From: Defluviitaleaceae bacterium
GTDB lineage: Bacteria; Bacillota_I; Bacilli_A; MOL361; Turicibacteraceae
Assembly: GCA_009778135.1 (NCBI GenBank)
Contig: WRKJ01000097.1
Location: 1-41,418, forward strand
DNA length: 41,418 bases
Direction: 5' to 3'
Shown piece by piece: positions 3,701-37,670 of the stretch. The position numbers and the translations under genes were made by a program. The stretch's first letter is position 1. Every line of letters begins with the position of its first letter. The notes beneath the pieces were generated by a model. It was not told where the DNA came from. It was given only the letters and a program-made list of their open reading frames with translations, and did no database searches.

Positions 3701-4428
3701 CCATCATATCGCGCCCTTGCAGCATTGATCGTGTTAGTTGGACCAGCAATGCCGGGCCACTGGTTACTCGGTTGCAACCTGTTCGCTGCATTGTTCCCGC
3801 GTAAAGGCTGTGGTTTCATGGAATTTTCAAATGACCACGAATTATAATGATGTCCAATCAGTTGACCTCTCAGATCCGCTATACCCGTCTGTCCTGCGAT
3901 AAGATGTGCATCTCCTGCAACACCCATCATAAAGTAATCTTCATAGACTTCTCTTAAACTTGGGTACTGATCAAAATGAAGTCCTGCTGGAAGGTTGTAA
4001 ATTAAAGACGTTTCAGGACCTCCAATGACCACTTCAGCGATGGCATAAATCAGAGGTGCATGGGTCACATAAGCCTTCACTGTCATGATGCCTTGTGGCT
4101 GATCTGCTGCAACCCTCAAGAAACCATTCTCTATTGTCGTGTTGCTTGAAACATCTCCTGATAAATACCATGAAAGTTCATCTCTTTCCACACCAAAACC
4201 ATCTATCTCAAAGCCACGAACACGACGAGGTGCTAATGTGATCTGACTTGGATGTAAGCTCGGGTTAACTGCGCCTTCATCGACCTCAACACTTGCTGCT
4301 GACTCATCAAATGAAACCAAATCCGTGGTTTCAGCAAAAACCGTAAACGGCATTGCACTAAAGATTAGCACAACTGCCAACAAAACTGATAAACTTTTTT
4401 GAAACAGACTTTTCTTTAACTTGTACAT
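796..4428 (-). CDS. secreted multidomain GH10 endo-1,4-beta-xylanase
   Basis: Secreted xylan-degrading enzyme, 1210 residues. A signal peptide (about 1-32, ending FAETT) is followed by a short beta-rich region, then a GH10 catalytic domain at about 145-535. E302 in DVVNEA is the likely acid/base and E440 in ISITEMD the likely nucleophile. Two homologous modules of about 175 residues follow (about 555-730 and 735-905), each with a II(L/I)G..x..VWPF start and a GL(L/I)GNIALRG end, probably carbohydrate-binding. Next come an Ig-like stretch (about 965-1060), a FIVAR-like helical module (1075-1136) and a Pro-rich tail with repeated PGxP units (1140-1205). No LPXTG motif or C-terminal membrane segment is seen, so the mode of cell attachment is unclear. 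The ATG is preceded by AAAGGAG. It is transcribed alone. Confidence 0.93.
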   Translation of the reverse strand: MYKLKKSLFQKSLSVLLAVVLIFSAMPFTVFAETTDLVSFDESAASVEVDEGAVNPSLHPSQITLAPRRVRGFEIDGFGVERDELSWYLSGDVSSNTTIENGFLRVAADQPQGIMTVKAYVTHAPLIYAIAEVVIGGPETSLIYNLPAGLHFDQYPSLREVYEDYFMMGVAGDAHLIAGQTGIADLRGQLIGHHYNSWSFENSMKPQPLRGNNAANRLQPSNQWPGIAGPTNTINAARARYDGMTFAGHTTAWHSQSPDWMWDRHPDGHTDRDVALENLQFHVHETFRQFGDQLSSMDVVNEALGSVNPTNPSDWRDALTRGEGWSPTLGSDWVMYAFVFAAEIVDELGLDVTLYYNDFLLHTTNKGIAAYTMVRDINQMHADGDIIHPITGEVFQRPNGGLLIEGVGMQDRQSGVLDIDGFSRAINMFADLGVVISITEMDLSWRISSPDGLLTEEEQIAQGQQMARFFEMIRRYATGPATAGSPYPRVVERITFWGIDDTHSWSPGEPMLFGRPTEDTIPGKEALRAVLDPFQFLEDHPWTPEEIPPVPGVHVFNLQDDGFSGVNIILGQDEAVWPFSTAGADGVVAFNPQPGATYHMLVYYQSFETFGLEAHWLRDNSSNNFTEASIISAEEMGQMTRGNQPTGPSDNVIPTQFFNPGVGGSFAWLETTFTMPEDAEPDGLLGNIALRGIHQGDGVLVHAIVIHRLDDEGNQVELLVNYPYQLPLVRPEIPGILVPEPNEAQSNGRADIIIGSGRDVWPFADAHESGLAFEPEPGVTYRLMFNVRTTGANGWRVRWIPGTGGEDYTTADGAIVNNYPVRVSTFGLGVPTPEAIPEMPVASVIPSHQNQGVSAAGVYTLIQDITLNPDEIYQGLIGNIALRGTGGSGSFVVNWISIQALEAGPGSEAAQTLNFWPFGVDAFDDFQDDVIDFMQQVDGFAPDHFTPNALNVANNYLTAITRLGENSDLDVDNPPQVGDTLLAGRISGGIGATGPEGALRNGRTHGFLVGNTTYEWLVNDVVVQTSPSHEFTILSEHVGYEVNVRLSSDWEIGALMSEATPAVVADDVIDPELIAARATLLALITEAEALNQADFTAETWAALQVALESARAALQSDDVNEITEKTTALHRALNTLELAPPIEPTQPPVPSPIPPLPGIPGLPPLPVFPGLPGMPGMPGIPELPGIPPVPSLPTVPSIPTFTLPDFRFLR

Positions 4429-10329: not shown

Positions 10330-10938
10330 TCACGAATAATTCTGCAAATGAAATTCGATCAAAGTTTTAAAGTTTAACTTATCCTCTAAGTAGCCTTTTA
10401 ATGCCATTTTAACTGCTTCATCATCCATATATGTACACATGTTTGCTATTTGAAGATTAAAAACTTTACGCGATGCCAGTAAATCTTTTTCATTAAGTTT
10501 TAACGTATCAATGGTAAACTGTGCTTTTTGATAATCTGAATGGGATTCATCTATCTTACTTGGAACAATTTCTCCTGTTTCAAATTTATATTTCAAAAAG
10601 TTCATAGGTTCAATTAAAACAGGATTTAAAAAATCATTTGAAAATGTTCCCTTTTTAGCATGCCCACATGTTTGTGGGTCATTACAGGAGGTAAGCATAT
10701 TATCATACGCCTTATAATTCGATGCTTTGTGTTTAGGCTCAATATGCTCAATGTGTGAGGTATCAACATTAATCATTCGTTCACAATAAGGACAATAACC
10801 ATCTTGCTCCTTATCCAACATATGAGTTTTTAGTGAGCTTTTAATATCAGGTCCATAATCATCCCAACTTTTAGGATTACGCTTCTTTTTAAATTCAACA
10901 TGATGAATAGGGTCTAACGTTTTAGTTATCTTTAGCAT
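10330..10938 (-). CDS. ptuB: HNH endonuclease, PtuB-like (Septu effector)
   Basis: 202-residue HNH nuclease. A CxxC pair (C49, C52 in YCPYCERM) precedes HIEHIEPKH (62-70), then YDNMLTSCNDPQTCGHAKKG with N80, C85, C91 and H93, a zinc-supported beta-beta-alpha-metal site. This layout fits the TIGR02646/PtuB nucleases. Family knowledge: in Septu anti-phage systems and in some retrons, PtuB is the nuclease released or activated by the ATPase PtuA. The gene overlaps ptuA by 17 bases, the arrangement expected for a complex. It lies inside a nucleoside catabolism operon, which is not where defence genes are usually expected. Confidence 0.85.
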   Translation of the reverse strand: MLKITKTLDPIHHVEFKKKRNPKSWDDYGPDIKSSLKTHMLDKEQDGYCPYCERMINVDTSHIEHIEPKHKASNYKAYDNMLTSCNDPQTCGHAKKGTFSNDFLNPVLIEPMNFLKYKFETGEIVPSKIDESHSDYQKAQFTIDTLKLNEKDLLASRKVFNLQIANMCTYMDDEAVKMALKGYLEDKLNFKTLIEFHLQNYS

Positions 10939-12199
10939 GCTGACGCCTCCTTCTTGAAGCGCTCATTTCAATGAGCATCATTTCTTCATCAGCGGCACCT
11001 AATTGCTGTTTAAGTTCGTTAAGTAACTTTAGGTAAACCTCGGAGTCATACGCATCATCATCAAGCAAAGATCTTAATTCATTTAATTTGGCAGTCGTTT
11101 TTTCATCTCTTAAACTATCTAAATCCATGGTAACATTTAAAATATGTTCTGCACTTTTACCATAAGTTTGATAAGCCCGCTCGACTTGGATGACACCCTC
11201 CTCATTCCTAGACATCATGCGCACACTTTCCGTCGGCACACTACCGATGATAAGTGGCGAATGGGTTGCAATAATCAGTTGATTATTTTCTCCAATTTTA
11301 CGATAAACATCAATGATTTTACGTTGCCATTCGGGGTGGAGCGAATTTTCTGGCTCGTCAATGATGATGATGGCGTTATTAACGTTAAGATTTTTCAAAG
11401 GCAACATCCTAAAAAACAGTTGTTTTTCCCCAGCTGAGAGATCTTTAAGTTGAACTTTTTTCCCTGCTTTATTTTCAAAGAGTGGCATTTGTTTATTATC
11501 TGATGACAAACCTATTAATTTTATGTTAAGGTTTAAACTAGCGAAAATATCGTTGATTTCTGCGCATTCCTGGTCGTTAACCTTTTTTATAGGTCTGTCA
11601 TCATTTACTTGAATGGCACGTGAAAATGCACCAGTGATTTTTTTTACGATGTACGCATTGACATCATTTAGCACCCATTCATTGGCGTGAATGACAACAG
11701 GATCTGGTTTCGTTTTCTCTCTGATTTGGATATCTTTGCCAATGCCTAGTTCAGCTGGCATCCAAATAACTTCAGGTTGTAAAAAATCTGATTCATGACG
11801 ATAACTTTCAAAAACCATGGGTAAATCAAACCCTTCGATCGTCAAGTCTGTATGACGATTAGTGGTGTAATCTGAATCTTCATAGCTTTCTGTTAATGTT
11901 GTAAATCCATTTTCTTCAACGTAACTCACCAAATCAAATCCGAATTTACTATACTCACTGATCCGCTTCCCATCTTTTTCAGCTTGATTAAGTTGCTGAT
12001 ATCCTTGATACAGAGATGTATGCCGATGCCAATCATCCTCAATCATCTGAACAATCGCTTCTAATACCTTTGTCTTCCCTGTCCCGTTATCACCAATAAA
12101 AGCAACAATCTCCAACGGATTCCCGGACTCATCGGTAAAGTCAATCTCTAAATCACCCAAAACCGGATGTCCATCAAACTTTAACTGCTTAATTTTCAT
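10922..12199 (-). CDS. ptuA: PtuA-like AAA/ABC-type ATPase (Septu sensor)
   Basis: 425-residue SMC/ABC-type ATPase. Walker A is GDNGTGKT (36-43). An ABC-like signature LSAGEKQ (254-260), Walker B IIIIDEPE (277-284) and the H-loop histidine H313 in ATHSPLI follow in order. There is no TOPRIM domain, so it is not an OLD nuclease. The pairing with an overlapping HNH gene makes PtuA of Septu the best call; a retron-type system would need a reverse transcriptase, and none is seen. An AAGGTGAG site precedes the ATG, 11 bases after deoC. The C-terminal tail is basic (SASRRRRQ). Confidence 0.85.
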   Translation of the reverse strand: MKIKQLKFDGHPVLGDLEIDFTDESGNPLEIVAFIGDNGTGKTKVLEAIVQMIEDDWHRHTSLYQGYQQLNQAEKDGKRISEYSKFGFDLVSYVEENGFTTLTESYEDSDYTTNRHTDLTIEGFDLPMVFESYRHESDFLQPEVIWMPAELGIGKDIQIREKTKPDPVVIHANEWVLNDVNAYIVKKITGAFSRAIQVNDDRPIKKVNDQECAEINDIFASLNLNIKLIGLSSDNKQMPLFENKAGKKVQLKDLSAGEKQLFFRMLPLKNLNVNNAIIIIDEPENSLHPEWQRKIIDVYRKIGENNQLIIATHSPLIIGSVPTESVRMMSRNEEGVIQVERAYQTYGKSAEHILNVTMDLDSLRDEKTTAKLNELRSLLDDDAYDSEVYLKLLNELKQQLGAADEEMMLIEMSASRRRRQHAKDN

Positions 12200-19576: not shown

Positions 19577-19615
19577 CAATAAAAGCGATCTATTTTTCGT
19601 AGATCGCTTTTATTG
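19577..19615. terminator. strong bidirectional terminator
   Basis: A perfect 16-base stem (19577-19592 with 19600-19615; CAATAAAAGCGATCTA) has a 7-base loop TTTTTCG. It separates the plus-strand response regulator from the minus-strand nagA, whose stop is at 19629, and can serve both. Confidence 0.9.
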
Positions 19616-19628
19616 CTTCTTATCGCGC

Positions 19629-20768
19629 TTACATGTTCATATAAGCAAGGTTGCCCTTCACCCATGTTGCGTGACAATTGAACGCTTCATCTAGTATAAT
19701 AACATCTGCATCTTTTCCAACTTCAAGGCTTCCTTTACGATCAGCGACTTTAATCGACGTCGCGGGATTAAGGGTTGCCATTCCAATGGCTTCAGGCAAT
19801 GTCGCATCAGTATTTTCATAGAAGTTGCGAACAGCTTGGTTTAAAGTCAAGACACTCCCAGCTAAAGTGCCATCTTTAAGACGGGCAACCCCTTCTTTTA
19901 CATGAGCAGCTTGACCACCAAGGTCGTAAATACCATCTTTCATACAACCGGCACGCATGCTATCGGTGATAAGGACGACACGGTCTTTCCCTTTATTATC
20001 TTTTACGAATTGAAAGAGGTGTTGATTCACGTGAACTTTATCTGCAATTAATTCCGTAAAAACATCATGGGTTAAAGCGGCGCCTACAATGCCTGGATCT
20101 CGGTGATGTAAGCCTGTCATGGCGTTAAATAAATGGGTGATATGAGCGCAACCGCATTGAATCGCTTGACTCGCTAAACCATAACTTGCATCACTATGAC
20201 CAATAGATAAAGTCACTTCTGTTTCAGCTTTTACCGTTTTTGTAAAATGAAGTTCTGAATCCATTTCTGGCGCATACGTCACCAGTTTGATCACATCTGA
20301 AAAGTCTTTAATCCATCCAGCATCGGGAAGGACAACAAAAGCTTCATTTTGAGCACCTTTGTATTTCTTGTTGATGAACGGGCCTTCTAAATGTGCACCT
20401 AACACCTCAGCAGCACCAACAATCAGCTCTCCTTGTAACTGTCGTACTGCTTCTAACGATTGATAAACTGCTTCTTTTGCCATGGTCATCGTTGTCGGTA
20501 AAAAAGATGTTGTCCCATACTGGGCAATACCGGTTGCAACTGTCTTAATGGCATCCACTGTCCCATCCATCACATCAGCACCCATACTTCCGTGAATATG
20601 AACATCAACAAAACCTGGTGCAACAATGCGCCCTTTTGCATCTACGATGTTTGCGCCGCTAGGTACATCATCTGAGATCTCTACAATTTTTCCATGATCT
20701 GTCACTAACACTTTGTTTTCTAATACTTCGTGAGGTGTTACAATTTTTCCATTAATAATGGCGTTCAC
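19629..20768 (-). CDS. nagA: N-acetylglucosamine-6-phosphate deacetylase
   Basis: Amidohydrolase of 379 residues that removes acetate from GlcNAc 6-phosphate. Seen: VDVHIHGSMGADVMDG (about 54-69), HLEGPFINKKYKGAQ (metal Glu), LSIGHSDASYG, ITHLFNAMTGLHHRDPG, and the catalytic Asp in LITDSMRA. The start is GTG, set by AGGAG 7 bases upstream. It closes the long operon beginning with the MFS gene, 30 bases after the aldolase. Its presence there suggests that the operon's substrate carries, or is metabolised through, an N-acetyl amino sugar; the GlcN6P deaminase NagB is not in the window. Confidence 0.94.
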   Translation of the reverse strand: MNAIINGKIVTPHEVLENKVLVTDHGKIVEISDDVPSGANIVDAKGRIVAPGFVDVHIHGSMGADVMDGTVDAIKTVATGIAQYGTTSFLPTTMTMAKEAVYQSLEAVRQLQGELIVGAAEVLGAHLEGPFINKKYKGAQNEAFVVLPDAGWIKDFSDVIKLVTYAPEMDSELHFTKTVKAETEVTLSIGHSDASYGLASQAIQCGCAHITHLFNAMTGLHHRDPGIVGAALTHDVFTELIADKVHVNQHLFQFVKDNKGKDRVVLITDSMRAGCMKDGIYDLGGQAAHVKEGVARLKDGTLAGSVLTLNQAVRNFYENTDATLPEAIGMATLNPATSIKVADRKGSLEVGKDADVIILDEAFNCHATWVKGNLAYMNM

Positions 20769-20798
20769 TTGATCACTCCTATTTGCGTTAAAATGAAT

Positions 20799-21539
20799 TT
20801 ATCCAACCAGCTTTTCCATGATTTCATACAAAGTCGCAACATCTTCCGGTCTTGTATCGCCTGTTTCTGAATCAATAATCGACGAGTACACATGAGGAAT
20901 GATTTTTTCGACGCCTGCATCAAGGGCAATCTTGACAATTTCTTCAAAATTGTCTAAATCAATGCCACCTGTTGGCTCTAGATAAAAATTGAACATCGCA
21001 CATGCTTTTGCAACTGCCACATATTCATCTTTATGAGCCAACCCTTTCATCGGAAAATATTTAATTGATGAGCAACCCATATCTTGAAGCAGCTTAATGG
21101 CTGTCTCAATGGGAACTTCCGCTTTAGGTGCACCGCTGCTCAAAGGTCCAGTTGCAATATTAACATAACCGACACGACCTGTTGGACTAACTAACCCATT
21201 GACAATTGTTTCATTTTGACCGAGTGCTTCTCGTGATGCACCTACGCCAGTAAACACTTGGTTGACATGCTGCGGTTGAAGTACACCAGATAGTCTGGTC
21301 ACCATGGCACTTTGATTTGGATCGCCTGCTCCAAGACCCACTGACAACGCATTGTGAGTGGCCTCGGCATATTTTTTCATATCTGTAATAGCCGCTTCGT
21401 CTGTTTCATAATTTTTAGACAAAACGCCTAAAATAACATGGCCTTTTGCTGCTTCATAACATGCTTTTGCATTTTGGACGGATCCTGCTAATACGTTTAA
21501 GCATAAGCAATCCTTTAAATAATTCGGTTGTAATGACAT
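20799..21539 (-). CDS. dgaF: DgaF/DagF-type KDGP aldolase
   Basis: 246-residue TIM-barrel aldolase of the DagF/KDGP family, which in Salmonella splits 2-keto-3-deoxygluconate 6-phosphate into pyruvate and glyceraldehyde 3-phosphate. Recognised from LNVLAGSVQNAKACYEAA, GHVILGVLSKNYETDE, GLGAGDPNQSAMV, GCSSIKYFPMKGLAH (Schiff-base Lys likely here) and EPTGGIDLDNFEEI. The ATG at 21539 follows GGAGG; the longer in-frame start at 21581 has none. It comes after dgaE, with 123 bases between them in which I see no gene. Confidence 0.88.
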   Translation of the reverse strand: MSLQPNYLKDCLCLNVLAGSVQNAKACYEAAKGHVILGVLSKNYETDEAAITDMKKYAEATHNALSVGLGAGDPNQSAMVTRLSGVLQPQHVNQVFTGVGASREALGQNETIVNGLVSPTGRVGYVNIATGPLSSGAPKAEVPIETAIKLLQDMGCSSIKYFPMKGLAHKDEYVAVAKACAMFNFYLEPTGGIDLDNFEEIVKIALDAGVEKIIPHVYSSIIDSETGDTRPEDVATLYEIMEKLVG

Positions 21540-21662
21540 TTTTAGGCTTCCTCCGTTTTTTATTGTCTCGCGACACCTCACATCCCCTCGAGGTCATAAA
21601 TGGTGTTGTACATGTTGAAAAATCACTCAACCTGATGCTTGTCGGGGATAAACGCTTCGGCT

Positions 21663-22766
21663 TCACTTTTCTTTTAAAATTTCTTGCAATCGTGTAACAA
21701 TTAGCTTCATTTCCGCTTCATCTACACTGCGAATGTCATACTCAATGACACCTCTATTTGACAAGTAATCCCGCGTGTAAATGGCTGGATTACCATGGCG
21801 TTGTCCTTCAATGACGCTTTGAGCCATCTCAGCTGTTGCCAATTTAAGTTGCGCCCGATAAATCGCTCGACCACTTCCATCTTGAACAATTTCTGCTACA
21901 ACAGCTGGTAGTTGATTCAATGCTTCGACAAAAGGAATTAACCGTTGTTTCATTGCTTGAGGTGATTCTGATCCAACTGTTAAATAGCGTTCCATGGCTG
22001 TGACCAAGCCCATCACATTTTCTTTTCCAATTTTCATGGTGCGACCGATGCCTTTTGCTTGTAGACGAACCCACGATACATAAGGATCTCGACCGATGAC
22101 AAGACCTGAACTTGGACCTTCAAAGGCTTTCGCCCCACTGTAAATCACCAAATCTGCCCCTGCTGCTGTATAACAGAACACATCTTCTTCTGCAGCTGCA
22201 TCAATGATCAAAGGAACAGCCATTTCTCTTGCAACTGAAACTGCTTCTTCTACCGTCAACATACTTTTTTGAACAGTGTGATGGCTTTTCACATATAAAA
22301 TGGCCGCCGTTTCAGCCGTTATTTGTGCCCGAAGATGATCTTTTGTACACATGTTGGCATAACCTGCTTCACGGACAACACCGCCACCTTGTTTAACCAT
22401 GAGTTCAATGGGAACACCATAATCAACATTGTGTCCTTTTGGAAGGACGATCTGGCGCTTTGAGGTTAAACTGATGTCGTAAGGGTCGTACAAATGTTTT
22501 TTAGATCCTTTTCCAATAACCCCTGCAACACTTAAAGCAATGCCTGCTGAAGCACTGGAGACAATTTGCGCATCTTCCGTTTTTAACAGGTTTGCCAAAT
22601 AAGCACCTGTTTGTTTCATTAAAACATCCATTTCAAAAAATTGTTGACCTGCTATTTTTAACGATTCAGCAACATCATCCGCAATTTTAGACACACCGAG
22701 AATGGTCATTTTTCCTGATGCGTTAATGACTTGTTTAAGTTGCAACTTATCGTGAATTTGTTCCAT
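21663..22766 (-). CDS. dgaE: DgaE-type PLP-dependent ammonia lyase
   Basis: SelA-like fold-type I PLP enzyme, 367 residues. Family knowledge: DgaE of Salmonella converts D-glucosaminate 6-phosphate to KDGP plus ammonia. The PLP lysine is likely in VIYSGAKAFEGPSSGLVIGR (about residue 215). Other family stretches are INASGKMTILGVS at the start, AQIVSSASAGIALSVAGV and IDAAAEEDVFCY. It is paired with the aldolase downstream, as expected for the two-step route. The natural substrate could be another amino-sugar-acid phosphate. The transport genes beside it are DUF4310/DUF4311/SFCGS, not a PTS. Confidence 0.88.
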   Translation of the reverse strand: MEQIHDKLQLKQVINASGKMTILGVSKIADDVAESLKIAGQQFFEMDVLMKQTGAYLANLLKTEDAQIVSSASAGIALSVAGVIGKGSKKHLYDPYDISLTSKRQIVLPKGHNVDYGVPIELMVKQGGGVVREAGYANMCTKDHLRAQITAETAAILYVKSHHTVQKSMLTVEEAVSVAREMAVPLIIDAAAEEDVFCYTAAGADLVIYSGAKAFEGPSSGLVIGRDPYVSWVRLQAKGIGRTMKIGKENVMGLVTAMERYLTVGSESPQAMKQRLIPFVEALNQLPAVVAEIVQDGSGRAIYRAQLKLATAEMAQSVIEGQRHGNPAIYTRDYLSNRGVIEYDIRSVDEAEMKLIVTRLQEILKEK

Positions 22767-22778
22767 CTGATTTTCTCC

Positions 22779-23447
22779 TCAACTTACAAAAATAGGCCAT
22801 ACTGTTGCAACGACCATGGCACCTATCACTGCGCCACCTTCGATGGGTTTCTTCCAAGCGTAGAAAATCAATGCCCCAACTGTGGCACCAATGCCAACAG
22901 GTGCTGATAGACTAAAAGAGGCAATAACCAGTAGAGGGCCAAAAAAGCGTCCCGTTTGATTACCTGCGCCCATGATCACATCAATACCAAAAGTAGAAGG
23001 CAATGTCCCACCTGTCCCTTTGCTATTCATACGGCTCACAATCCACCCAATCAAGCAACCTGCTACAAAGCCTGTTAATAAGGCCAGTGGAAAAGATGCG
23101 AGTGGTTCATAAAGACCAAGCATGAGCAAAACTGATGGCAACCCGATCCCAATTCCTGTCATGATGGAACCACCTGCGTCAAGGACGCCGACTAACGAGC
23201 CTTCTAGCACCCTTGAAAATAAGAAACTGATACCAAATACTGCTGCTGCACCGTAGAAGCCAACATCTCCCCTACTCGCACCAGCTTGCAAAATAGCGAG
23301 TGCGCCTATTTCAACAAAGGCACCAAATCCATGGGTTAAAAACAGATGTGTTCCCGCAAAAATGCCGGCTGATAAAAGGCCTACTAAAATAGGAAATAAG
23401 ACTTTTTGGCGTTGCTTTTGTTTTTCTTCCTTGCTCATCCGCTTCAT
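22779..23447 (-). CDS. DUF4310 family membrane protein
   Basis: 222-residue membrane protein with about six hydrophobic segments, Gly-rich between them (GIGIGLPSVLLMLGLYEP, TGGTLPSTFGIDVIMGAGNQ). The DUF4310 assignment rests on this sequence style and on its invariable company: DUF4311, SFCGS, DgaE and DgaF. The function of the family is unproven; the operon context suggests a subunit of a membrane carrier. The ATG overlaps the DUF4311 stop by 4 bases, so the two are coupled. Confidence 0.8.
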   Translation of the reverse strand: MKRMSKEEKQKQRQKVLFPILVGLLSAGIFAGTHLFLTHGFGAFVEIGALAILQAGASRGDVGFYGAAAVFGISFLFSRVLEGSLVGVLDAGGSIMTGIGIGLPSVLLMLGLYEPLASFPLALLTGFVAGCLIGWIVSRMNSKGTGGTLPSTFGIDVIMGAGNQTGRFFGPLLVIASFSLSAPVGIGATVGALIFYAWKKPIEGGAVIGAMVVATVWPIFVS

Positions 23448-24169
23448 CCCCTCAATCCTTCAGCTAATATGCCCCAATCAAACTGACTCAGGTGCGCCAA
23501 CCCTACGAAGATGGCAATCATCACAACTAGCAAAGTGAGCGTTGTTTTCTTCCAACCTAGATCCTCAACACTTTTACCTAAAACAATCCCTAAAACAATC
23601 CCTAAAACAGCATTTCCAATCAGCAAGTGAGAAGTAGCACCCAATAACGTACCATAGAAACCTGTTTTCCGACCCGCATCAATGGCTGCCAACCAAAAAA
23701 AAACAGGCATCACCACTGAAACAAAATAAAAAGCAGCGATAGAAAAAATTTCTCTTGCGACGGAAAAAGCGGTCTCAGGAATGAGCCGAGTTATCAACAT
23801 GAAGAAACCGACAAAGAACATGCCAGCGATCCCACCAGCAATCCCCATTTTAACTGGGTGATGTAACGTCTCCTCCACCGTCGACCCTTTTTTCATTAAT
23901 AAACTTGCTGCCAAGTTCGGCAAGCTTCTTTGTACCAAGTCTTGTGTAAACGTACCGAACGCAAGTAAAGCGATCCCTGTTTGAAAGAGGAATTTAGCAC
24001 CGAAAGTCGCATGTTCTTTTCTTTCCCCCTTACACGCATTGAGCTCACTGAGCATTCTAAAAGATCCCATGCCTAAAGCATCTGGAATATGAAACATGTT
24101 TGAAGCACCGATGCCTATTGACATGCCAATTAAAGCACCAATGATCAGTGATTGAATGAGAATTAACAT
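23444..24169 (-). CDS. DUF4311 family membrane protein
   Basis: 241-residue membrane protein with about six to seven hydrophobic segments, starting with a long one (about 3-22, LIIGALIGMSIGIGASNMFH). The start at 24169 follows AAGGAG; a longer in-frame start at 24205 has no such site. In this gene cluster family it accompanies DUF4310, and the pair probably forms a heteromeric membrane complex (inference). Before it lies a 72-base gap where DUF4312 would be expected. Confidence 0.8.
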   Translation of the reverse strand: MLILIQSLIIGALIGMSIGIGASNMFHIPDALGMGSFRMLSELNACKGERKEHATFGAKFLFQTGIALLAFGTFTQDLVQRSLPNLAASLLMKKGSTVEETLHHPVKMGIAGGIAGMFFVGFFMLITRLIPETAFSVAREIFSIAAFYFVSVVMPVFFWLAAIDAGRKTGFYGTLLGATSHLLIGNAVLGIVLGIVLGKSVEDLGWKKTTLTLLVVMIAIFVGLAHLSQFDWGILAEGLRG

Positions 24170-24241
24170 ACTTTTATGACTCCTTCGAAATGACGTGATG
24201 GACAACCTGACTTAGAAAAACATCGGCTTGTTTAGGAGACG

Positions 24242-24598
24242 TTATGCCTGCAATTCAAGATAAGTTTCAGTTAGTCTTTTCCCTAATTCTTCTACATCCA
24301 TAAAACCAAATCCCAATGCACGCTTTCCTTCTTTTAAAGCCGTTATGCCTTCTTCGATAGACCGCATACCATGCGACTCAGGATAGCCATACTTGGTGTT
24401 CGCAGAGATCGCACCTGCGCCACCACTTCCACAAAAAGAAATCCCGAAATCTGCATTTTCTGCCTTCATGACATCTCCAAGTTTCATATCTGCTGCAACC
24501 CCGGGCACGACAACTGCACGCCCTCCCGCAGCTTCTACACCTTTTGCAACATGTTGACCTTTTCCTAAACGGTCAGCAATAACAACTGTTACTGACAT
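24242..24598 (-). CDS. glycine-rich SFCGS family protein
   Basis: 118-residue soluble protein with the family name motif SFCGSGGAGAISANTKYGYP (about 55-74) and an N-terminal strand/loop VTVVIADRLGKGQHVAKG. The fold resembles small sugar-isomerase or PTS-IIB-like proteins in outline, with a central Cys that could be a phosphate or metal site; that is inference. It occurs with the DUF4310/4311/4312 genes and the DgaE/DgaF enzymes, so a role in transport coupling or substrate handling is likely. AAGGAG precedes the ATG. Confidence 0.85.
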   Translation of the reverse strand: MSVTVVIADRLGKGQHVAKGVEAAGGRAVVVPGVAADMKLGDVMKAENADFGISFCGSGGAGAISANTKYGYPESHGMRSIEEGITALKEGKRALGFGFMDVEELGKRLTETYLELQA

Positions 24599-24639
24599 TT
24601 TAATCTACTCCTTCTTACTTAAACTTATTCTGCTACTTA

Positions 24640-24981
24640 TTAATTCAATTGTGCCAATTCAAAATGGACTGACAATAAATAAGCTTCGCCCGCAACCATG
24701 TTTGGCACTTGCTTACACACTTTTTCAGCAAGCTCTAATGACAAAGCTGAAACTTCACTGAACATCTCTGGGTCAACCTCTGGAATTTCACCACCCTCAT
24801 AACCCCGCTCGACCATGGCACAAAGATGGGACGTTAAAGCCAACGTTTGCTCAAACGCTAACTTTAATCCTTCTTTTTCTAAGGTTGACTGGGTAAATGT
24901 CAAAAGAGACTTGCAAATCTCTTTATGGTTTGACTTTGATAAAATTTCTTCTTTTTTCATCGCATATGTTTCATGATTCAT
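24640..24981 (-). CDS. small PRD-domain protein (YhfY-like)
   Basis: 113-residue helical protein that looks like a single PTS regulation domain. Two histidines sit where PRD phospho-histidines are expected: LTSHLCAMVERGYEGGE (about residue 51) and EAYLLSVHFEL near the C terminus. There is no DNA- or RNA-binding domain. Similar stand-alone PRD proteins accompany SFCGS/DUF4310 operons. The ATG at 24981 lies inside the end of the amidohydrolase gene (11-base overlap) with GGAAAGG upstream. Since no PTS EII gene is present, what would phosphorylate it is unclear. Confidence 0.7.
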   Translation of the reverse strand: MNHETYAMKKEEILSKSNHKEICKSLLTFTQSTLEKEGLKLAFEQTLALTSHLCAMVERGYEGGEIPEVDPEMFSEVSALSLELAEKVCKQVPNMVAGEAYLLSVHFELAQLN

Positions 24982-26098
24982 TTTTATACACAACCTTTCC
25001 TTCACGTAGGGTGATCACCGGTTCAAGGACTTGATTGGCAATCATCACCATGCCCATAGAATCAATGATTTCTGTTTGTTCATGAACAACATTAAAAATG
25101 GTTACATCTGCACGTGTGCCATCTTCCAATGTTCCTTGCTCTTTTAAATTTAGAATTTCTTTAACACCAATAGTAACAGATTTTACCACTTCATCTAATG
25201 TATAACCGAGATGCATCAGCTTCGACATGGTGAGCATTAAACTACCCACAGGTTCATGATAGTTTTTCAAATAAATATCGGTACTAATGGTAAAGGGGTA
25301 AGCATACTTTTCTTTATACTTCATCAACGTTTCAAAACTAAAACTATCAGTGCCATGACCGACATCAAATAAAACCCCTCGTTTAAGCGCAGCCAAAGCA
25401 TCTGGAATCAGATGACCTTCTTCGTCTAAAATCCCATGTTTTTTACCGTGGAAAGCATGCGTGACAATATCGCCTTCTTTAAGAAGTGGAAATATTTCTT
25501 CTAAATTAGGAGGCGGATTCCCAATATGCGTCATAATGGGAACATCTGTCATCTCTGCAAGACCTCTCGCATAAATGAGCGGTTTAATCCCACTTTGTTT
25601 GACAACAGACGAACTCATTCTTGCTTTTAATCCCACGATGCTAGGCTCATTCGTTCGGATATGATTAAATTCATCAAGGGTCATCAAGTTATTCATATCC
25701 GCCAGTTCTGAAAGGCCATGACATAAACCTTTCGTTGAAATGTTTAAAAAGGTAAGAATCTCTGTTTGACTCTTATCAATAACGGCATCTTTAAAGCGAC
25801 CAAAATCCTCGCTTCCTGTGCTCCCTGCATCAACAACAGTCGTCACACCTTGCTCAATCCCAATTTTATCAGGATCAATCCCCAGTTCCGTGTAATCTTT
25901 AAAAACATGAACATGCATGTCGATAAATCCTGGTGCAACATAGCTCCCAGCAGCATCAATCACTTCCAAATAGCGACTGGACATCACTTCTTCTACTGGA
26001 ACAAATCTTCCATTTTTAATGCCAATAGCTCCCACCTTTATCTCACTTTTCAACGGATCGATGACATGACCGTTTTTAATTAAAAGTGCTGACTCCAT
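24971..26098 (-). CDS. amidohydrolase/deacetylase family metallohydrolase
   Basis: About 375 residues, cytosolic amidohydrolase-superfamily enzyme. Metal-site motifs: GFIDMHVHVFKDYTELG (about 59-75), the bridging Lys probably in IVGLKARMSSS, MTHIGNPPP, VTHAFHGKKHG and the late catalytic region FDVGHGTDSFSF. Members of this group sit in dga-type and D-amino-acid operons and probably deacetylate or deaminate an amino-sugar acid or a D-amino-acid derivative. The start is uncertain: ATG at 26098 follows GGGTGA closely, while ATG at 26110 is possible but poorly placed. It follows the MFS gene by about 20-30 bases. Confidence 0.85.
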   Translation of the reverse strand: MESALLIKNGHVIDPLKSEIKVGAIGIKNGRFVPVEEVMSSRYLEVIDAAGSYVAPGFIDMHVHVFKDYTELGIDPDKIGIEQGVTTVVDAGSTGSEDFGRFKDAVIDKSQTEILTFLNISTKGLCHGLSELADMNNLMTLDEFNHIRTNEPSIVGLKARMSSSVVKQSGIKPLIYARGLAEMTDVPIMTHIGNPPPNLEEIFPLLKEGDIVTHAFHGKKHGILDEEGHLIPDALAALKRGVLFDVGHGTDSFSFETLMKYKEKYAYPFTISTDIYLKNYHEPVGSLMLTMSKLMHLGYTLDEVVKSVTIGVKEILNLKEQGTLEDGTRADVTIFNVVHEQTEIIDSMGMVMIANQVLEPVITLREGKVVYKNES

Positions 26099-26129
26099 GA
26101 TTTCACCCATTTCTATTCATTCTATAACC

Positions 26130-27365
26130 TCAAGCAAGACGCACTTGTTCAACAATGATCGCTGTGCCAACTTCGCTTAACGATTTGCTACGTATGACCA
26201 GTACCAAAGTACCAATTAAAATAACTGTTGTAATCCTAAAGACCATAAAGCCACCCATGTGTTGATAAATAATCCCAAAAAGGAGGTTTAAAACAGCGCT
26301 ACTGACTGCTGATACTGAAGCAACCAAGGTGAATGCAAGTCCCATGACATTTTGAGGAACAACTTTTCTAATATAAGTAATATTGCCAGCAACCTGGGTA
26401 CAAACTGCAATTGCATGTCCCATGCTTAAAAGAACAAAGATCGTTAAGTTGGTCGTAAACGAGTAAACGGCTAGTCTTAAAATCATGGTGCTAACAGAAA
26501 AGAGATACCATTTTTTGAAGCCAACTTTTCGTAAAATGACAGCGCCAAGAGGTAATAAAATGAGTTCTGGTCCAACTTGTGCCAGCATCATCCAGCTCAT
26601 CACACTTTCTGCAGCACCAAGTTCTTCCACCAGATGATTGGCGATGTACATCTTGGCTGATTCCACAACGATGAGACTCATCATACTGAACGCAAGAATA
26701 AACAAGAATTGTCGATTTGCCAACAGTTGTTTAACATCTTTTTTAGTTGCTTTTTGTTTAACTTTTTTTTCAGAGATGCCTGCTTCTGACTTAGGCACAA
26801 AAAACATAAGGGTAAAAGTGAGCGCCGACATAATGACTGACGTGCCAAAGATAACCATCGGCAAAGACAACTCAATTCTTCCGCCAACCCACGGGAGATG
26901 AAAACCTGTAATTAAAAAACCAGCAATCATCGTAAAAAGAAGCCAACCCCAAGAGACAAAAACACGAATTTTACCAAAATCATATTTTACTTTTTCACAG
27001 TAATTGGTAATAATCAGATCGGTAAAAGGCGTGATGGGTCCTCGTGCTAATCCAATGAATAAAGAGACAATCATAACCGCTGCAAATGTCCGGGCGTAAT
27101 AATAAAAAATAGAAGCAATGATGGAAACAATCAAAGCCATTTTAATCACACCACCATACTCGCCAGTTTTGTCCCCAATAAAGCCAACGACAGGTTTAAT
27201 GACAATCACAAGACCTGTGCTGAGGAAAGCGACAAATCCAATTTGAGTTCCTGTCAAGCCGACGTTTTGCTCTAAATGAAGGTTGATAAAACTAGCAAAG
27301 ATGCCACCTGAACCTGCACCGACCAACATGATTAATTTAAAAATTAAAAGATAGTGATCTTTCAT
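26130..27365 (-). CDS. MFS transporter
   Basis: Major facilitator of 411 residues with 12 predicted membrane helices in two halves joined by a charged loop (about 190-215, SEAGISEKKVKQKATKKD). GDKTGEYGGV after helix 2 is the family's signature loop. The overall style resembles the MFS_1-like/LacY group of sugar and nucleoside proton symporters. As first gene of the operon, directly behind a strong promoter, it is a likely importer for the compound processed by the amidohydrolase, DgaE/DgaF and NagA. It would then work beside, or instead of, the DUF4310/4311 complex. Confidence 0.85.
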   Translation of the reverse strand: MKDHYLLIFKLIMLVGAGSGGIFASFINLHLEQNVGLTGTQIGFVAFLSTGLVIVIKPVVGFIGDKTGEYGGVIKMALIVSIIASIFYYYARTFAAVMIVSLFIGLARGPITPFTDLIITNYCEKVKYDFGKIRVFVSWGWLLFTMIAGFLITGFHLPWVGGRIELSLPMVIFGTSVIMSALTFTLMFFVPKSEAGISEKKVKQKATKKDVKQLLANRQFLFILAFSMMSLIVVESAKMYIANHLVEELGAAESVMSWMMLAQVGPELILLPLGAVILRKVGFKKWYLFSVSTMILRLAVYSFTTNLTIFVLLSMGHAIAVCTQVAGNITYIRKVVPQNVMGLAFTLVASVSAVSSAVLNLLFGIIYQHMGGFMVFRITTVILIGTLVLVIRSKSLSEVGTAIIVEQVRLA

Positions 27366-27411: not shown

Positions 27412-27440
27412 ATTATAGCATTTTCTCGGAGCATGATCAA
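27412..27440 (-). promoter_or_regulatory. promoter of the MFS-to-nagA operon
   Basis: Minus strand: TTGATC (27435-27440), 17-base spacer, TATAAT (27412-27417). A TGAAAGCGAATATC stretch just downstream of the start point matches the left half of a CcpA (cre) site but not the right half, so catabolite control is only a weak suggestion. No copy of the GntR palindrome seen at 35594 and 37629 is present here. Confidence 0.7.
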
Positions 27441-27480: not shown

Positions 27481-27500
27481 GGCTCAAATTAAATTGAGCC
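27481..27500 (-). terminator. hairpin after the gntR gene
   Basis: GGCTCAA (27481-27487) pairs with TTGAGCC (27494-27500). Read on the minus strand it is followed by CTTTGATT, a modest T-run, and it lies 12 bases after the gntR stop, so it is probably the end of that operon. The T-run is better on the plus strand, where no gene ends. Confidence 0.5.
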
Positions 27501-27511
27501 TTTTCTTAACA

Positions 27512-28237
27512 TTAGGTTAACACAATTTCAAAGTCATGCTTCTGACTCAAAAAGATGGATTCTGTATATTCCATCACGTCGCCTTTTTCTGTATAAACAC
27601 AACGATAAATTTTCAATGCAAAGCTATCCTTTGCTTGCTTTAATGCACTGGCTTCTGCTTCATTTAAAAGAATCGGACGGATGATTTGCTCTGCTCTCAC
27701 CAAGTCATGATGATATTTACGATGATATAAATCATACATCGAGCGTGATTCGACTAAGTGCTTTGTTAACTGGGGACACATCGTTTCATTTAAATAAATC
27801 GTTTCTAAAACCAATGGCTCGCTTTCCAAATAACGCACACGCTTTATCTTGTAGCCACTTGAGGATGTTGTCTCAAGCTTTTTTTTAAGCCAATTAGATA
27901 AAGAAATCGCTTCAAATGATAACAAATCGTTGGACACTTTCATGCCTTTTTTCTTTTGCATTTCACTTAAACTCTCTAAACTTTGATAACTAGAAATAGG
28001 TTTAGACTGAGCCACATAAGTCCCTTTCCCTTGTTTACGTACAAGAAAGCCTCGAGTTACAAGCATCCCAATCGCTTTATTAACCGTCATGCGACTGATT
28101 TCTTGAAGTTCGCAAAGGTCACGTTCTGGCATTAAATAACTCCCCTCTGCAAGTTCTCCTGACTCAATCATTTTACGAATAATATGAGCAAGTTGAACAT
28201 ACAAAGGGACATCAAGCTCTTTGCATACTTTTTCCAT
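27512..28237 (-). CDS. GntR family transcription regulator, HutC/UTRA type (NagR/DasR-like)
   Basis: 241-residue regulator with an N-terminal winged helix (about 8-75: LMPERDLCELQEISRMTVNK, then RKQGKGTYVA) and a C-terminal UTRA effector domain (about 95-240). Family knowledge: HutC-subfamily members such as NagR/YvoA and DasR bind amino-sugar phosphates and recognise TGGTNTANACCA palindromes; two such sites are in this window, at 35594-35613 and 37629-37644. The start is preceded by AGAGGTG. The insertion sequence now lies 35 bases upstream; without it the gene would directly follow mupG, so it was once the last gene of the ABC/MupG operon and probably autoregulated. Confidence 0.88.
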   Translation of the reverse strand: MEKVCKELDVPLYVQLAHIIRKMIESGELAEGSYLMPERDLCELQEISRMTVNKAIGMLVTRGFLVRKQGKGTYVAQSKPISSYQSLESLSEMQKKKGMKVSNDLLSFEAISLSNWLKKKLETTSSSGYKIKRVRYLESEPLVLETIYLNETMCPQLTKHLVESRSMYDLYHRKYHHDLVRAEQIIRPILLNEAEASALKQAKDSFALKIYRCVYTEKGDVMEYTESIFLSQKHDFEIVLT

Positions 28238-28272
28238 CGTACACCTCTTTTCAGCAGTTATTTGATTCTTAA

Positions 28273-29906
28273 CTCAACTTTCGCATTTGAAGGAAGTATG
28301 TAAAAGACTAATAGCACCACCAAGTTAAAGCGTATCCATCTATATAAAGAATCCATCTTGAAAAAATATCAAAACTATGTTTTAAGAGCTGCAAAAAAGA
28401 CAACAATCCTGTAAAATAGTAGTTACCACACCAACTAAGAACAGAAAGGTTGTCTCAGTAATATGATACCACAAGAAATGAAAAAGTCACTACAAGAATT
28501 GAAAATAAATGCATTCCTACGAGAATCAAACATCAAAAAAGCAAAAGGAACAACAATATTTGAAGTATTTACCACGATTTTCCTACTAAGTTTCCAAAAA
28601 GAAACATGGTTTCAACAAAAATTCATGTCAGATAAATCAGATTCACTAGTAGGAAAAGATGTGGTTTATCGTTTCCTTAATCGTGCAACATACAATTGGA
28701 AGAAGTTCCTGTTACTTCTATCAAGCCATTTAATCGGGTTATGTTCACGACTTACATCTAATGAACGCGTGAAAGTCTTAGTTCTTGATGATACATTGTT
28801 TTCAAAAGCTAGAAGTAAGAGTGTGGAGCTATTGTCTACCGTTTTTGATCACACAACAAGAAAATATGTTAAAGGATTCCAATGCCTCGTACTTGGTTGG
28901 ACTGATGGTGCTTCTTTTGTTCCTGTTAATTTCTCATTAATGGCTTCCGTTAAGCATTTGATCAAAGGTATTAATGAAGATATAGACAAACGAACAAGTG
29001 GATATAAACGTCGCTTAGAAGCAACAGCTTCAAAACCAATCATCGCTGCTAAACTCATTGAAGAAGCATTGGCTAATGGAATTAGTGCCAGTTATGTGTT
29101 AATGGATACTTGGTTTACGGAAGCTCCGCTTATCAAATCAATCTTAACACAAGGACTTGATGTCATTGGCATGGTTAAGCGTGGTCCGAAGCGCCTCTAC
29201 GATTACAAAGGTAAGAAATATACAGCTGAACGTTTGTTGAAATTGGTCAATCGTAACACACATTCATCTGAAATCATAGGTTCAATTCATGTGAAGATGA
29301 ACAGTGGGATTCCTGTTAAGCTCGTATTCATCAAGCATAGAAACAATCCGAAGAAGTGGTTGGTTCTTTTAAGCACTGATCAATCGTTAAGTGATGAAGA
29401 GATTGTTCGCATTTATGGATATCGGTGGAATATTGAGATTTTTTTCAAATGCAATAAATCTCATCTGAATTTAAGTTCAGAATTTCAATGTCGCTCTTAT
29501 GATTCATTAATCGCACACACATCTATTGTTTTTTCAAGGTACATTTTTTTAGCTTGGGAGCAACGTAAAGCCAATGATGACAAAACCTTAGGTTATTTGT
29601 TTTTTGAATTTGGTGAAGATATCCGTGAGGTTGATTTCACTGAGGCTTTACTTGCACTTATGAACTTCATCTTGGATATTGTCATGAATCAACAGGAAGA
29701 AGTTATCATTAAAGTTGCAGACTTCAAAAACGCTGTTTTAACTTGGATATCTACTTTACCCAAATATTTGCAGAGATTTTTGGGTGTTTTGATTCCTGTA
29801 GATTAGTCAAGATGCTTTCTTTTACACTCGGCAGGTGATTCAAAACTACGCTATAACAGTACGTTGGGCGCTTTTCTTCTTTCTTTTTTCTTCTGCGAAA
29901 GTTGAG
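28273..29906 (+). mobile_element. IS4-family insertion sequence, 1634 bases, with 7-base target duplication
   Basis: Terminal inverted repeats CTCAACTTTCGCA are perfect for 13 bases (28273-28285 and 29894-29906). TTCTTAA occurs directly outside both ends (28266-28272 and 29907-29913), a 7-base target site duplication. One transposase gene fills the element. Its position splits what was a mupG-gntR transcription unit, and the right copy of the duplication contains the mupG stop codon. An inverted repeat AGACAAC/GTTGTCT before the transposase start could mask its translation in read-through transcripts. Confidence 0.95.
28463..29806 (+). CDS. IS4-family DDE transposase
   Basis: 447-residue transposase. 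The first catalytic Asp is probably in VLVLDDTLFSKAR (about 113-125), the second in YVLMDTWFTEAPL, and the Glu in YGYRWNIEIFFKCNK. This last stretch has the spacing Y-2-R-3-E-6-K, the signature of the IS4 family. The reading frame is uninterrupted and both ends of the element are present, so it may still be active. It is oriented against the surrounding genes. The start is the first ATG, about 14 bases after an AAAGG site. Confidence 0.93.
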   Translation: MIPQEMKKSLQELKINAFLRESNIKKAKGTTIFEVFTTIFLLSFQKETWFQQKFMSDKSDSLVGKDVVYRFLNRATYNWKKFLLLLSSHLIGLCSRLTSNERVKVLVLDDTLFSKARSKSVELLSTVFDHTTRKYVKGFQCLVLGWTDGASFVPVNFSLMASVKHLIKGINEDIDKRTSGYKRRLEATASKPIIAAKLIEEALANGISASYVLMDTWFTEAPLIKSILTQGLDVIGMVKRGPKRLYDYKGKKYTAERLLKLVNRNTHSSEIIGSIHVKMNSGIPVKLVFIKHRNNPKKWLVLLSTDQSLSDEEIVRIYGYRWNIEIFFKCNKSHLNLSSEFQCRSYDSLIAHTSIVFSRYIFLAWEQRKANDDKTLGYLFFEFGEDIREVDFTEALLALMNFILDIVMNQQEEVIIKVADFKNAVLTWISTLPKYLQRFLGVLIPVD

Positions 29907-29909
29907 TTC

Positions 29910-30998
29910 TTAACCTTTAACCAATTTGAATGTTGACCACGGCTTAACATGGTCGAGAAGAATCATTTCATCTTCTTTAATACGACCCACAACGTTGACA
30001 CGTCCTGTGTTTTCCATTTCTTTTAACGCAATATCAAGTTCACCATTGTAACGACCCAGTTCATTGTTACAAACAAGAATGTCGCCGCGTTTAATCAGTT
30101 CTGTATCATGAGGTGGAAAATCCTCTTTCGCATACTTAACACGTGTCATGGTAGATCTGAGCAAATAAGCTGAACGGTCTCCACGATAGCTATGCAGTTC
30201 ATCATAAACAATCTTTTGTTCAACTTCTGTTGCCGATGGCTTCAATTCCACTTTTATCTCAGGATGTGGTGCAAAGAAGGCGTCAGACATGGCTTTTAGT
30301 TCAGCTTCGCTGGCATAGGCATTGCCAATGATGATATCATCAATCAAGTCAATCATCATCAGATGTTTAACCTGTGTCTCAATCGGTAGAAGACGATGAG
30401 CTTCCAAACTTGCTAGTCCGTCACAAATATCCCATGGTCCAAAAGTGGCATCTTGTGAACTAACAAAGCATGCTGTGTTAATATTATGTCGACGGAAATC
30501 TTCACTACAAGCAACGAAGAAATCATTGTCTAAACCTGTATACAACATGGGATAGAAATTGTGAGAGCCGATTAAATTTTCACGATTGGGTGAATACGAC
30601 ATAATTTGATCTAAATAGCGCGTTCCGACACTCATGTTAATTTCAATTTTCAACCCATATGGATTTCGTGTCATTCGTGCTTCTTCACTTCCAGTAAATC
30701 CTACATCTAAGCGAATCCCATAAGCACCGAGTTCATGAAAAAATGATAAATCATCATAACTAATTTCAAGTTGCGTAAACAAATTAGGCGCAATATCTAC
30801 CATGACTTCCATACCAAGTTCAGTTGCGTAGTTCACAACTTTTTTGAAGTCACGTAACACTTCTTCCTTATCTCCTTCAATTTGGAGTAAACTGGTGAAA
30901 ACACGCTTAAATCCATATTGATGAGCCAAATCTAAATAAGCTTTATCCTGTTCATAAGTTGATTTTTCTGGGTAAATTGAAATTCCTAATTTTGGCAT
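29910..30998 (-). CDS. mupG: MupG family 6-phospho-N-acetylmuramidase (DUF871)
   Basis: 362-residue cytosolic protein: N-terminal TIM barrel (about 1-240) and C-terminal beta domain. Seen: LGISIYPEKSTYEQDKAYLD, RVFTSLLQIEGD, GIRLDVGFTG, SHNFYPMLYTGLD and IDDIIIGNAYAS. Family knowledge: MupG of S. aureus hydrolyses MurNAc-6P-GlcNAc from cell wall turnover. The ATG follows AAAGGAG. The neighbouring ABC importer would bring in unphosphorylated sugar, so a kinase would be needed first; the ROK kinase at 39756 is a candidate (inference). The final TAA lies inside the target duplication of the IS, which therefore left the protein intact. Confidence 0.92.
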   Translation of the reverse strand: MPKLGISIYPEKSTYEQDKAYLDLAHQYGFKRVFTSLLQIEGDKEEVLRDFKKVVNYATELGMEVMVDIAPNLFTQLEISYDDLSFFHELGAYGIRLDVGFTGSEEARMTRNPYGLKIEINMSVGTRYLDQIMSYSPNRENLIGSHNFYPMLYTGLDNDFFVACSEDFRRHNINTACFVSSQDATFGPWDICDGLASLEAHRLLPIETQVKHLMMIDLIDDIIIGNAYASEAELKAMSDAFFAPHPEIKVELKPSATEVEQKIVYDELHSYRGDRSAYLLRSTMTRVKYAKEDFPPHDTELIKRGDILVCNNELGRYNGELDIALKEMENTGRVNVVGRIKEDEMILLDHVKPWSTFKLVKG

Positions 30999-35593: not shown

Positions 35594-35653
35594 AAATTGG
35601 TATATACCAATTTCAGATAGTCTTATTATAACAACTTTTTAACCAAAATGCAA
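35594..35653 (-). promoter_or_regulatory. promoter and GntR-type operator of the ABC/MupG/GntR operon
   Basis: Minus strand: TTGCAT (35648-35653), 17-base spacer, TATAAT (35625-35630). Immediately downstream of the start point lies the perfect 20-base palindrome AAATTGGTATATACCAATTT (35594-35613). Its core TGGTATATACCA resembles DasR/NagR sites of the HutC subgroup, and the operon's last gene encoded such a regulator before the IS insertion. Confidence 0.85.
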
Positions 35654-37628: not shown

Positions 37629-37670
37629 ATTGGTCTATACCAATTATAGCACGCCAATTTAAAATTTCAA
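37629..37670 (-). promoter_or_regulatory. promoter and GntR-type operator of the cutC-GH18 operon
   Basis: Minus strand: TTGAAA (37665-37670), 16-base spacer, TATAAT (37643-37648). The palindrome ATTGGTCTATACCAAT (37629-37644) overlaps the last bases of the -10 box and the start point, so bound repressor would block polymerase. It differs in one base from the core of the palindrome at 35594. Confidence 0.85.

Follow-up and report, generated by a model that had tools for sequence, protein, structure and literature searches.

The closest described relatives of the gene cluster examined here are EF_0829-EF_0839 of Enterococcus faecalis and AHA_3910-3917 of Aeromonas, to which the NCBIfam models TIGR03577, TIGR03579-TIGR03583 and TIGR01437 relate; its catabolic part resembles the D-glucosaminate pathway encoded by dgaABCDEF in Salmonella (PMC9529869; PMC3844500). 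A literature search retrieved no description of DUF4310, DUF4311, DUF4312 or SFCGS, although these families are widespread, in keeping with an earlier note on this DNA, made from the sequence alone, which had called the cluster a poorly described catabolic system. In this study, we analysed a 41,418-nucleotide stretch of a Defluviitaleaceae bacterium (contig WRKJ01000097.1 of assembly GCA_009778135.1), hereafter the window, which carries such a cluster. Judged by family matches and gene order, the cluster is a rewired member of the EF_0829-EF_0839/AHA_3910-3917 system. DUF4312 has been lost from it, and its membrane pair, DUF4311 and DUF4310, has diverged strongly.

All seven core genes, namely those for SFCGS, DUF4311, DUF4310, the PRD protein, DgaE, DgaF and an EF_0837-type amidohydrolase, are present on one strand (Table 1). 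In the direction of transcription on the minus strand, the order is GntR-UTRA, MFS, EF_0837, PRD, SFCGS, DUF4311, DUF4310, DgaE, DgaF and NagA. Every gene that the earlier note had named was recovered on this strand at or near the position it had been given and matched its family model; the core gene missing from the title of that note is the EF_0837-type amidohydrolase.

For comparison, SFCGS loci were gathered from GTDB, the class and phylum of the host, the class of locus L046, the order of locus L007 and plasmid records, and their flanks were annotated with profiles built in this analysis. This yielded 119 non-redundant loci from Bacillota and Pseudomonadota, approximately 117 of which are complete. 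A scan of IMG/VR found no relative.

The absence of DUF4312 is real and rare. The earlier note had reported that this gene is missing from its usual place between SFCGS and DUF4311, and this proved correct: exactly 72 nt separate the SFCGS stop (24242) from the ATG of DUF4311 (24169). The open frame in this gap (SPKQADVFLSQVVHHVISKES*) is no closer to DUF4312 than shuffled sequences, since 228 of 300 shuffles reached its score against C-terminal tails and 27 of 300 against whole proteins, and a DUF4312 remnant in the gap was rejected on this ground. The search of the gap and the whole genome that the note had called for was also run. A PF14189 search of the host genome (G000; 2.32 Mb, 97% complete) gave no match, and the same search was positive in both controls, a Granulicatella genome and an E. 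faecalis record. DUF4312 was scored in 115 of the 119 loci. Among the four exceptions, L006 does contain the gene, in a frame that had been removed by the overlap filter, and L200 stops where its contig ends. Only two complete loci, the window and L134, are therefore truly free of DUF4312; in every other complete locus, it sits between SFCGS and DUF4311.

The simplest reading is that the window and L134 represent two independent losses. L134 differs from the window in its position in the tree and in its gene order, in which, as in Enterococcus, a phosphotransferase system (PTS) EIIC gene separates DUF4310 from EF_0837. Its corresponding gap is contiguous and 21 nt long, in a genome (G045) that is only 78% complete. 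A single clade of the two loci was rejected on the concatenated SFCGS, DUF4311 and DUF4310 sequences (p-AU 0.00014) and was borderline on single genes (p-AU 0.047 and 0.067). Loss of DUF4312 through lack of a PTS was rejected, because EI and HPr are present in both G000 and G045. The DUF4312 protein of Neobacillus, examined in place of a host protein, was modelled with AlphaFold2 at a pLDDT of 89 and has a predicted beta-alpha-beta-beta fold; its match to dodecin 2v19 (probability 0.94, TMt 0.51, E 0.04) ranked behind ribosomal-protein matches of lower TM-score.

The divergence in the window is limited to the membrane module, with the enzymes conserved, and this is an unexpected new result. 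We defined near-invariant residues as those conserved in at least 95% of the other loci and counted their losses in each protein. DUF4311 has lost 26 of 84 and DUF4310 14 of 75, as against 2 of 56 in SFCGS, 0 of 57 in EF_0837, 2 of 78 in DgaE and 0 of 51 in DgaF. Together, 40 of 159 positions are lost in the membrane proteins (25.2%) versus 4 of 242 in the soluble ones (1.7%), a ratio of 15, compared with 0.4-4.2 in other divergent loci. The losses in DUF4311 are densest in residues 23-66. The end branches of DUF4311 (2.93, median 0.18) and DUF4310 (4.04, median 0.25) are both approximately 16 times the median length, versus 2.5 times for DgaE (1.0). The window DUF4311 is 43-50% identical to those of reference loci, compared with 75% between the Neobacillus and Klebsiella proteins, and it scores below the TIGR03580 cut-off (250 versus 301). 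Both membrane proteins form private long branches beside the ordinary Bacillota clade and do not group with the divergent clade, and SFCGS, encoded next to them, is ordinary (80% identity). The window and L134 share the DUF4311 substitutions F54A, S55T and W86L, and Q32 is altered in both; these parallel changes were dropped as evidence, because the count of shared sites (8 against 5.3 expected) is close to expectation and resembles the counts of other divergent pairs. As a separate observation on this protein family, three relatives from a class with small genomes (L132, L133 and L203) encode a DUF4311 of approximately 280 aa if TGA is read as Trp, with DUF4312 present and BglG undetected; in L132 and L133, DUF4311 appears in pieces under translation table 11.

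The locus in the window divides the system into a conserved enzyme module and a non-conserved membrane module, which suggests that DUF4310, DUF4311 and DUF4312 form one functional unit, probably a carrier. Comparison of DUF4311 with solved carriers, including PTS EIIC, gave no significant match in the PDB by sequence or fold.

The genes at the two ends of the row have a different background. MFS was found in none of the 118 other clusters and NagA in one (L202); both had been sought with the window's own sequences, so that unrelated carriers could escape. NagA is the sole full-length NagA of the host genome (a second full-length copy was sought there and rejected), and it has orthologues of 60-63% identity in sister genera without the SFCGS cluster. 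In one sister genome (G002), NagA comes immediately after a GntR gene that shares 50% identity with that of the window, with ATAGGTATATACCAAT just upstream. The MFS carrier has paralogues of 44-49% identity within the host genus (G000 and G001), and an MFS-family tandem pair occupies the same place in two species, both congeners. The SFCGS cluster itself is absent from all seven other members of the host family that were searched. Because GntR, NagA and MFS have relatives in sisters in which the cassette is absent, we infer from these comparisons that the outer genes are host-native and the middle was acquired. The earlier note had taken MFS and NagA as functional companions that point to an N-acetylated substrate, and had named relatives without them in the cluster as evidence that would refute its view. 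Such relatives are the rule, and this claim is not supported: the adjoining nagA and MFS genes, tempting as the inference was, appear to be local host genes and offer no built-in clue to the system.

The chemistry proposed for DgaE and DgaF, an ammonia lyase followed by a KDPG (2-keto-3-deoxy-6-phosphogluconate) aldolase, is supported by family membership. DgaF passes its equivalog model, making KDPG the likely intermediate. DgaE carries the SHH motif at residues 161-163, and the catalytic histidine of DgaE (His-163) has been described (PMC9529869). It falls within the broader family TIGR01437 and scores below the glucosaminate-6-phosphate equivalog NF047797 (369 versus 600), so its substrate may possibly be another 2-amino-2-deoxy-hexonate-6-phosphate. 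An N-acylated precursor is plausible because the conserved EF_0837 gene is of the deacetylase type, and not because of NagA. A literature search for the activity of EF_0837-type enzymes found no paper. As a lead, relatives of EF_0837 act on N-acetyl-D-amino acids and acetyl-R-mandelate. The nearest relatives of the enzymes are mixed, EF_0837 pointing to Bacillales (62% identity to the Neobacillus locus L012) and DgaE and DgaF to Enterococcus-type loci (82% for DgaF). Among the weak matches of the SFCGS profile outside the host are RpiB-like proteins, identified from their sequences in the loci inspected (per-genome E-values of 1e-6 to 1e-3), and this places SFCGS near the RpiB/LacAB family. 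The sequence relation lies around a Cys-Gly-x-Gly loop, and the best PDB match is LacB (4lfk), a weak one (E 0.13). SFCGS may thus be a sugar-phosphate-binding or isomerising protein of the RpiB type.

We consider it about an even chance (roughly 0.5) that the locus represents a retained catabolic module within a host gntR-nagA unit, in which the membrane module, minus DUF4312, is drifting or re-specialising and the MFS carrier has come to replace or supplement it. The scenario that we infer for carrier replacement, substrate, regulation and direction of assembly is as follows. A cassette of mixed Bacillales/Lactobacillales-like origin would have been placed between the host NagR-type gntR and nagA, and a genus-native MFS paralogue would have been recruited at its head. 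The MFS carrier would be the main route of entry for an N-acylated or free 2-amino-2-deoxy-hexonate, which some kinase would then phosphorylate. EF_0837 would take off the acyl group, DgaE would eliminate ammonia and DgaF would cleave KDPG into pyruvate and glyceraldehyde-3-phosphate, with NagA handling ordinary N-acetylglucosamine-6-phosphate from the neighbouring peptidoglycan/chitin genes. DUF4311 and DUF4310, which would normally work with DUF4312, would have given up their original job or altered their mode of work. More tentatively, DUF4312 may be an obligate partner of DUF4311 and DUF4310; acquisition of a new carrier, here MFS, would then lead to its loss and free the pair from constraint with the enzymes kept, and the locus would be a carrier replacement caught in the act. 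If this is true, the contrast between the two modules would reveal which genes are the carrier.

Several points weigh against the retained-module scenario. The DUF4311 and DUF4310 reading frames are intact, without frameshift or stop, and so are not simply dead; the predicted DUF4311 model is also fairly confident (pLDDT 86). Together, these features point to relaxed or redirected constraint or to mosaic origin, with no finished pseudogene. Unphosphorylated entry would demand a kinase, and none has been assigned. The MFS protein is nearest to the sugar-efflux, HcaT and LacY families, so it could serve import or export. The stretch immediately preceding the MFS row yielded no NagR-type operator, and a single sister genome is the basis for the direction of assembly. 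Furthermore, if the cluster were a mosaic that drew on a divergent lineage outside the sample, long branches would likewise be seen only in the membrane genes.

This last alternative is the strongest of the rivals, although we regard it as rather unlikely. It holds that a lineage outside the sample, in which DUF4312 is naturally lacking, supplied the membrane pair in its present form, and that this pair was joined to Lactobacillales-like DgaE/DgaF and a Bacillales-like EF_0837, with no loss or drift in place. The mixed identities of the enzymes fit this idea, L134 shows that DUF4312-free membrane pairs exist, and the cluster does recombine, as L196 indicates: its membrane genes group with a divergent clade and its DgaE with Lactobacillales, and its ratio of residue losses is intermediate (4.2). 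However, the window DUF4311 and DUF4310 have no near relative among the sampled loci, and their private branches arise near the ordinary Bacillota clade; the ordinary SFCGS beside them and the tree tests against a common clade with L134 also speak against it.

A somewhat less probable alternative gives DUF4312 an accessory role, such as that of a sensor or scaffold linked to the PTS or to BglG, and holds that it was lost when a BglG antiterminator was exchanged for a GntR-UTRA repressor, with DUF4310 and DUF4311 continuing their work. A BglG-type PRD/PTS regulator is adjacent in 110 of the 119 loci and is absent at both DUF4312-free loci, where a GntR-UTRA gene lies nearby instead (Fisher p 0.005, for n=2 and a test chosen after looking). 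The yhf cluster of E. coli, with a related PRD protein, an SFCGS-like YhfU and no DUF4312, could be taken in the same sense. Against this, seven loci in which BglG was undetected retain DUF4312; some of these represent contig ends or genomes that use genetic code 4, and they include the Pilibacter locus L058 and L197, in which GntR is present. HPr and EI occur in the genomes of both DUF4312-free loci, and the accessory role leaves unexplained why the membrane pair alone has diverged. The view of the earlier note, a single dedicated system for an N-acetylated sugar acid with MFS and NagA as integral parts, is very improbable, because neither gene is conserved in the cluster and both have host relatives outside it, although co-transcription is suggested by the tight packing of the genes from MFS to NagA on the same strand and by a strong terminator-like hairpin shortly after NagA (19577-19615).

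The surroundings contain further amino-sugar genes. The 16-bp palindrome ATTGGTNTANACCAAT, chosen because it matches the DasR/NagR-type site, occurs in exact form just twice in the 2.32-Mb genome, both times inside the window (ATTGGTATATACCAAT and ATTGGTCTATACCAAT). When two mismatches were allowed, the host count equalled that of the control, which leaves the exact pair alone as noteworthy; the two palindromes are putative operators of a candidate NagR/DasR-type regulon. Since they precede the ABC transporter-MupG and CutC-GH18 rows, the region resembles a locus for peptidoglycan/chitin amino sugars controlled by a NagR-type regulator. The function of the MupG family has been described (PMC6262408), and MupG was found within the SFCGS neighbourhood of 20 other loci. 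In the window, an insertion sequence splits mupG from gntR; the empty site is 31 nt between the two genes, and the target duplication contains the mupG stop codon.

Other features of the window were also observed. An AAA ATPase and HNH pair matching PtuA/PtuB of the Septu anti-phage defence system (10330-12199; PADLOC 3e-98 and 2e-40) lies inside a deoB-deoC nucleoside catabolism row. A GH10 xylanase-family protein of 1210 aa has a long proline/glycine-rich C-terminal tail (796-4428), and a HepT-like ribonuclease (PF01934; 7851-8216) has no PADLOC match. A protein with AAA-ATPase-like and PD-(D/E)XK nuclease domains (PF09820, PF08011; 37783-39495) is encoded between CutC and a ROK kinase.

Table 1. 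Features of the cluster and its surroundings in the window
Feature	Position	Strand	Evidence
NagA, N-acetylglucosamine-6-phosphate deacetylase; last in row	19629..20768	-	TIGR00221 338 bits vs 226
DgaF, KDPG aldolase	20799..21539	-	PF07071 348 bits; NF047796 379 vs cut-off 300
DgaE-family pyridoxal phosphate (PLP) ammonia lyase	21663..22766	-	TIGR01437 512 vs 385; SHH motif
DUF4310 membrane protein, strongly diverged	22779..23447	-	PF14187 232 bits
DUF4311 membrane protein, strongly diverged	23444..24169	-	PF14188 225 bits
72-nt gap, usual DUF4312 site; ribosome-binding-site-like stretch inside	24170..24241	-	
SFCGS protein, related to RpiB/LacAB sugar-phosphate isomerase family	24242..24598	-	PF14272 198 bits
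Stand-alone PRD protein, EF_0829/AHA_3910 family; ATG at 24981	24640..24981	-	TIGR03582 97 vs 69
EF_0837-type amidohydrolase/deacetylase, core gene	24971..26110	-	NF006689 419 vs 371; PDB relatives 2ics, 2ogj
MFS carrier (MFS_1_like), row head	26130..27365	-	PF12832
Promoter-like site TTGATC-17-TATAAT, extended -10, before MFS	27412..27440	-	Consensus scan; site number not above chance
Terminator-like hairpin after GntR	27481..27500	-	Consensus scan
GntR-UTRA regulator, NagR(YvoA)/DasR type	27512..28237	-	PDB YvoA 4u0v/2wv0 4e-26, DasR 4e-20
Insertion sequence	28272..29907	+	DDE transposase 28463-29806; perfect 14-bp terminal inverted repeats; 5-bp target duplication TCTTA
MupG, 6-phospho-N-acetylmuramidase family	29910..30998	-	PF19200/PF05913
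Palindrome ATTGGTATATACCAAT, candidate dre/NagR-type operator before ABC transporter-MupG row	35596..35611	.	Exact genome match
Palindrome ATTGGTCTATACCAAT, candidate operator before CutC-GH18	37629..37644	.	Exact genome match

Compared with the known systems, the window shares with the NagR(YvoA)/DasR regulon a GntR-UTRA protein whose closest PDB relatives are B. subtilis YvoA and Streptomyces DasR, as well as dre-like palindromes; these, however, precede the ABC-MupG and CutC-GH18 rows and not the MFS-Dga row. The E. coli yhfSTUVWXYZ cluster is similar in its stand-alone PRD protein (YhfY), its SFCGS-related DUF2620 protein (YhfU) and the presence of a membrane protein (YhfT). However, its enzymes are different and YhfS was not matched to DgaE; YhfT was rejected as a homologue of DUF4310/DUF4311, with no detectable sequence link. 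The Salmonella D-glucosaminate pathway has in common with the window a DgaE-family ammonia lyase and the DgaF aldolase; in Salmonella, however, the permease (DgaABCD) belongs to the PTS and the activator is of the LevR type, and the window DgaE remains below the equivalog cut-off. With EF_0829-EF_0839, the window shares the seven core genes, their conserved order, the family-model matches and a nearby MupG, which in Enterococcus lies inside the operon. It differs in the absence of DUF4312 and BglG, the divergence of DUF4310 and DUF4311, and the presence of MFS as first gene, nagA as last and GntR upstream, and it represents a new, rewired version of a familiar type of cluster.

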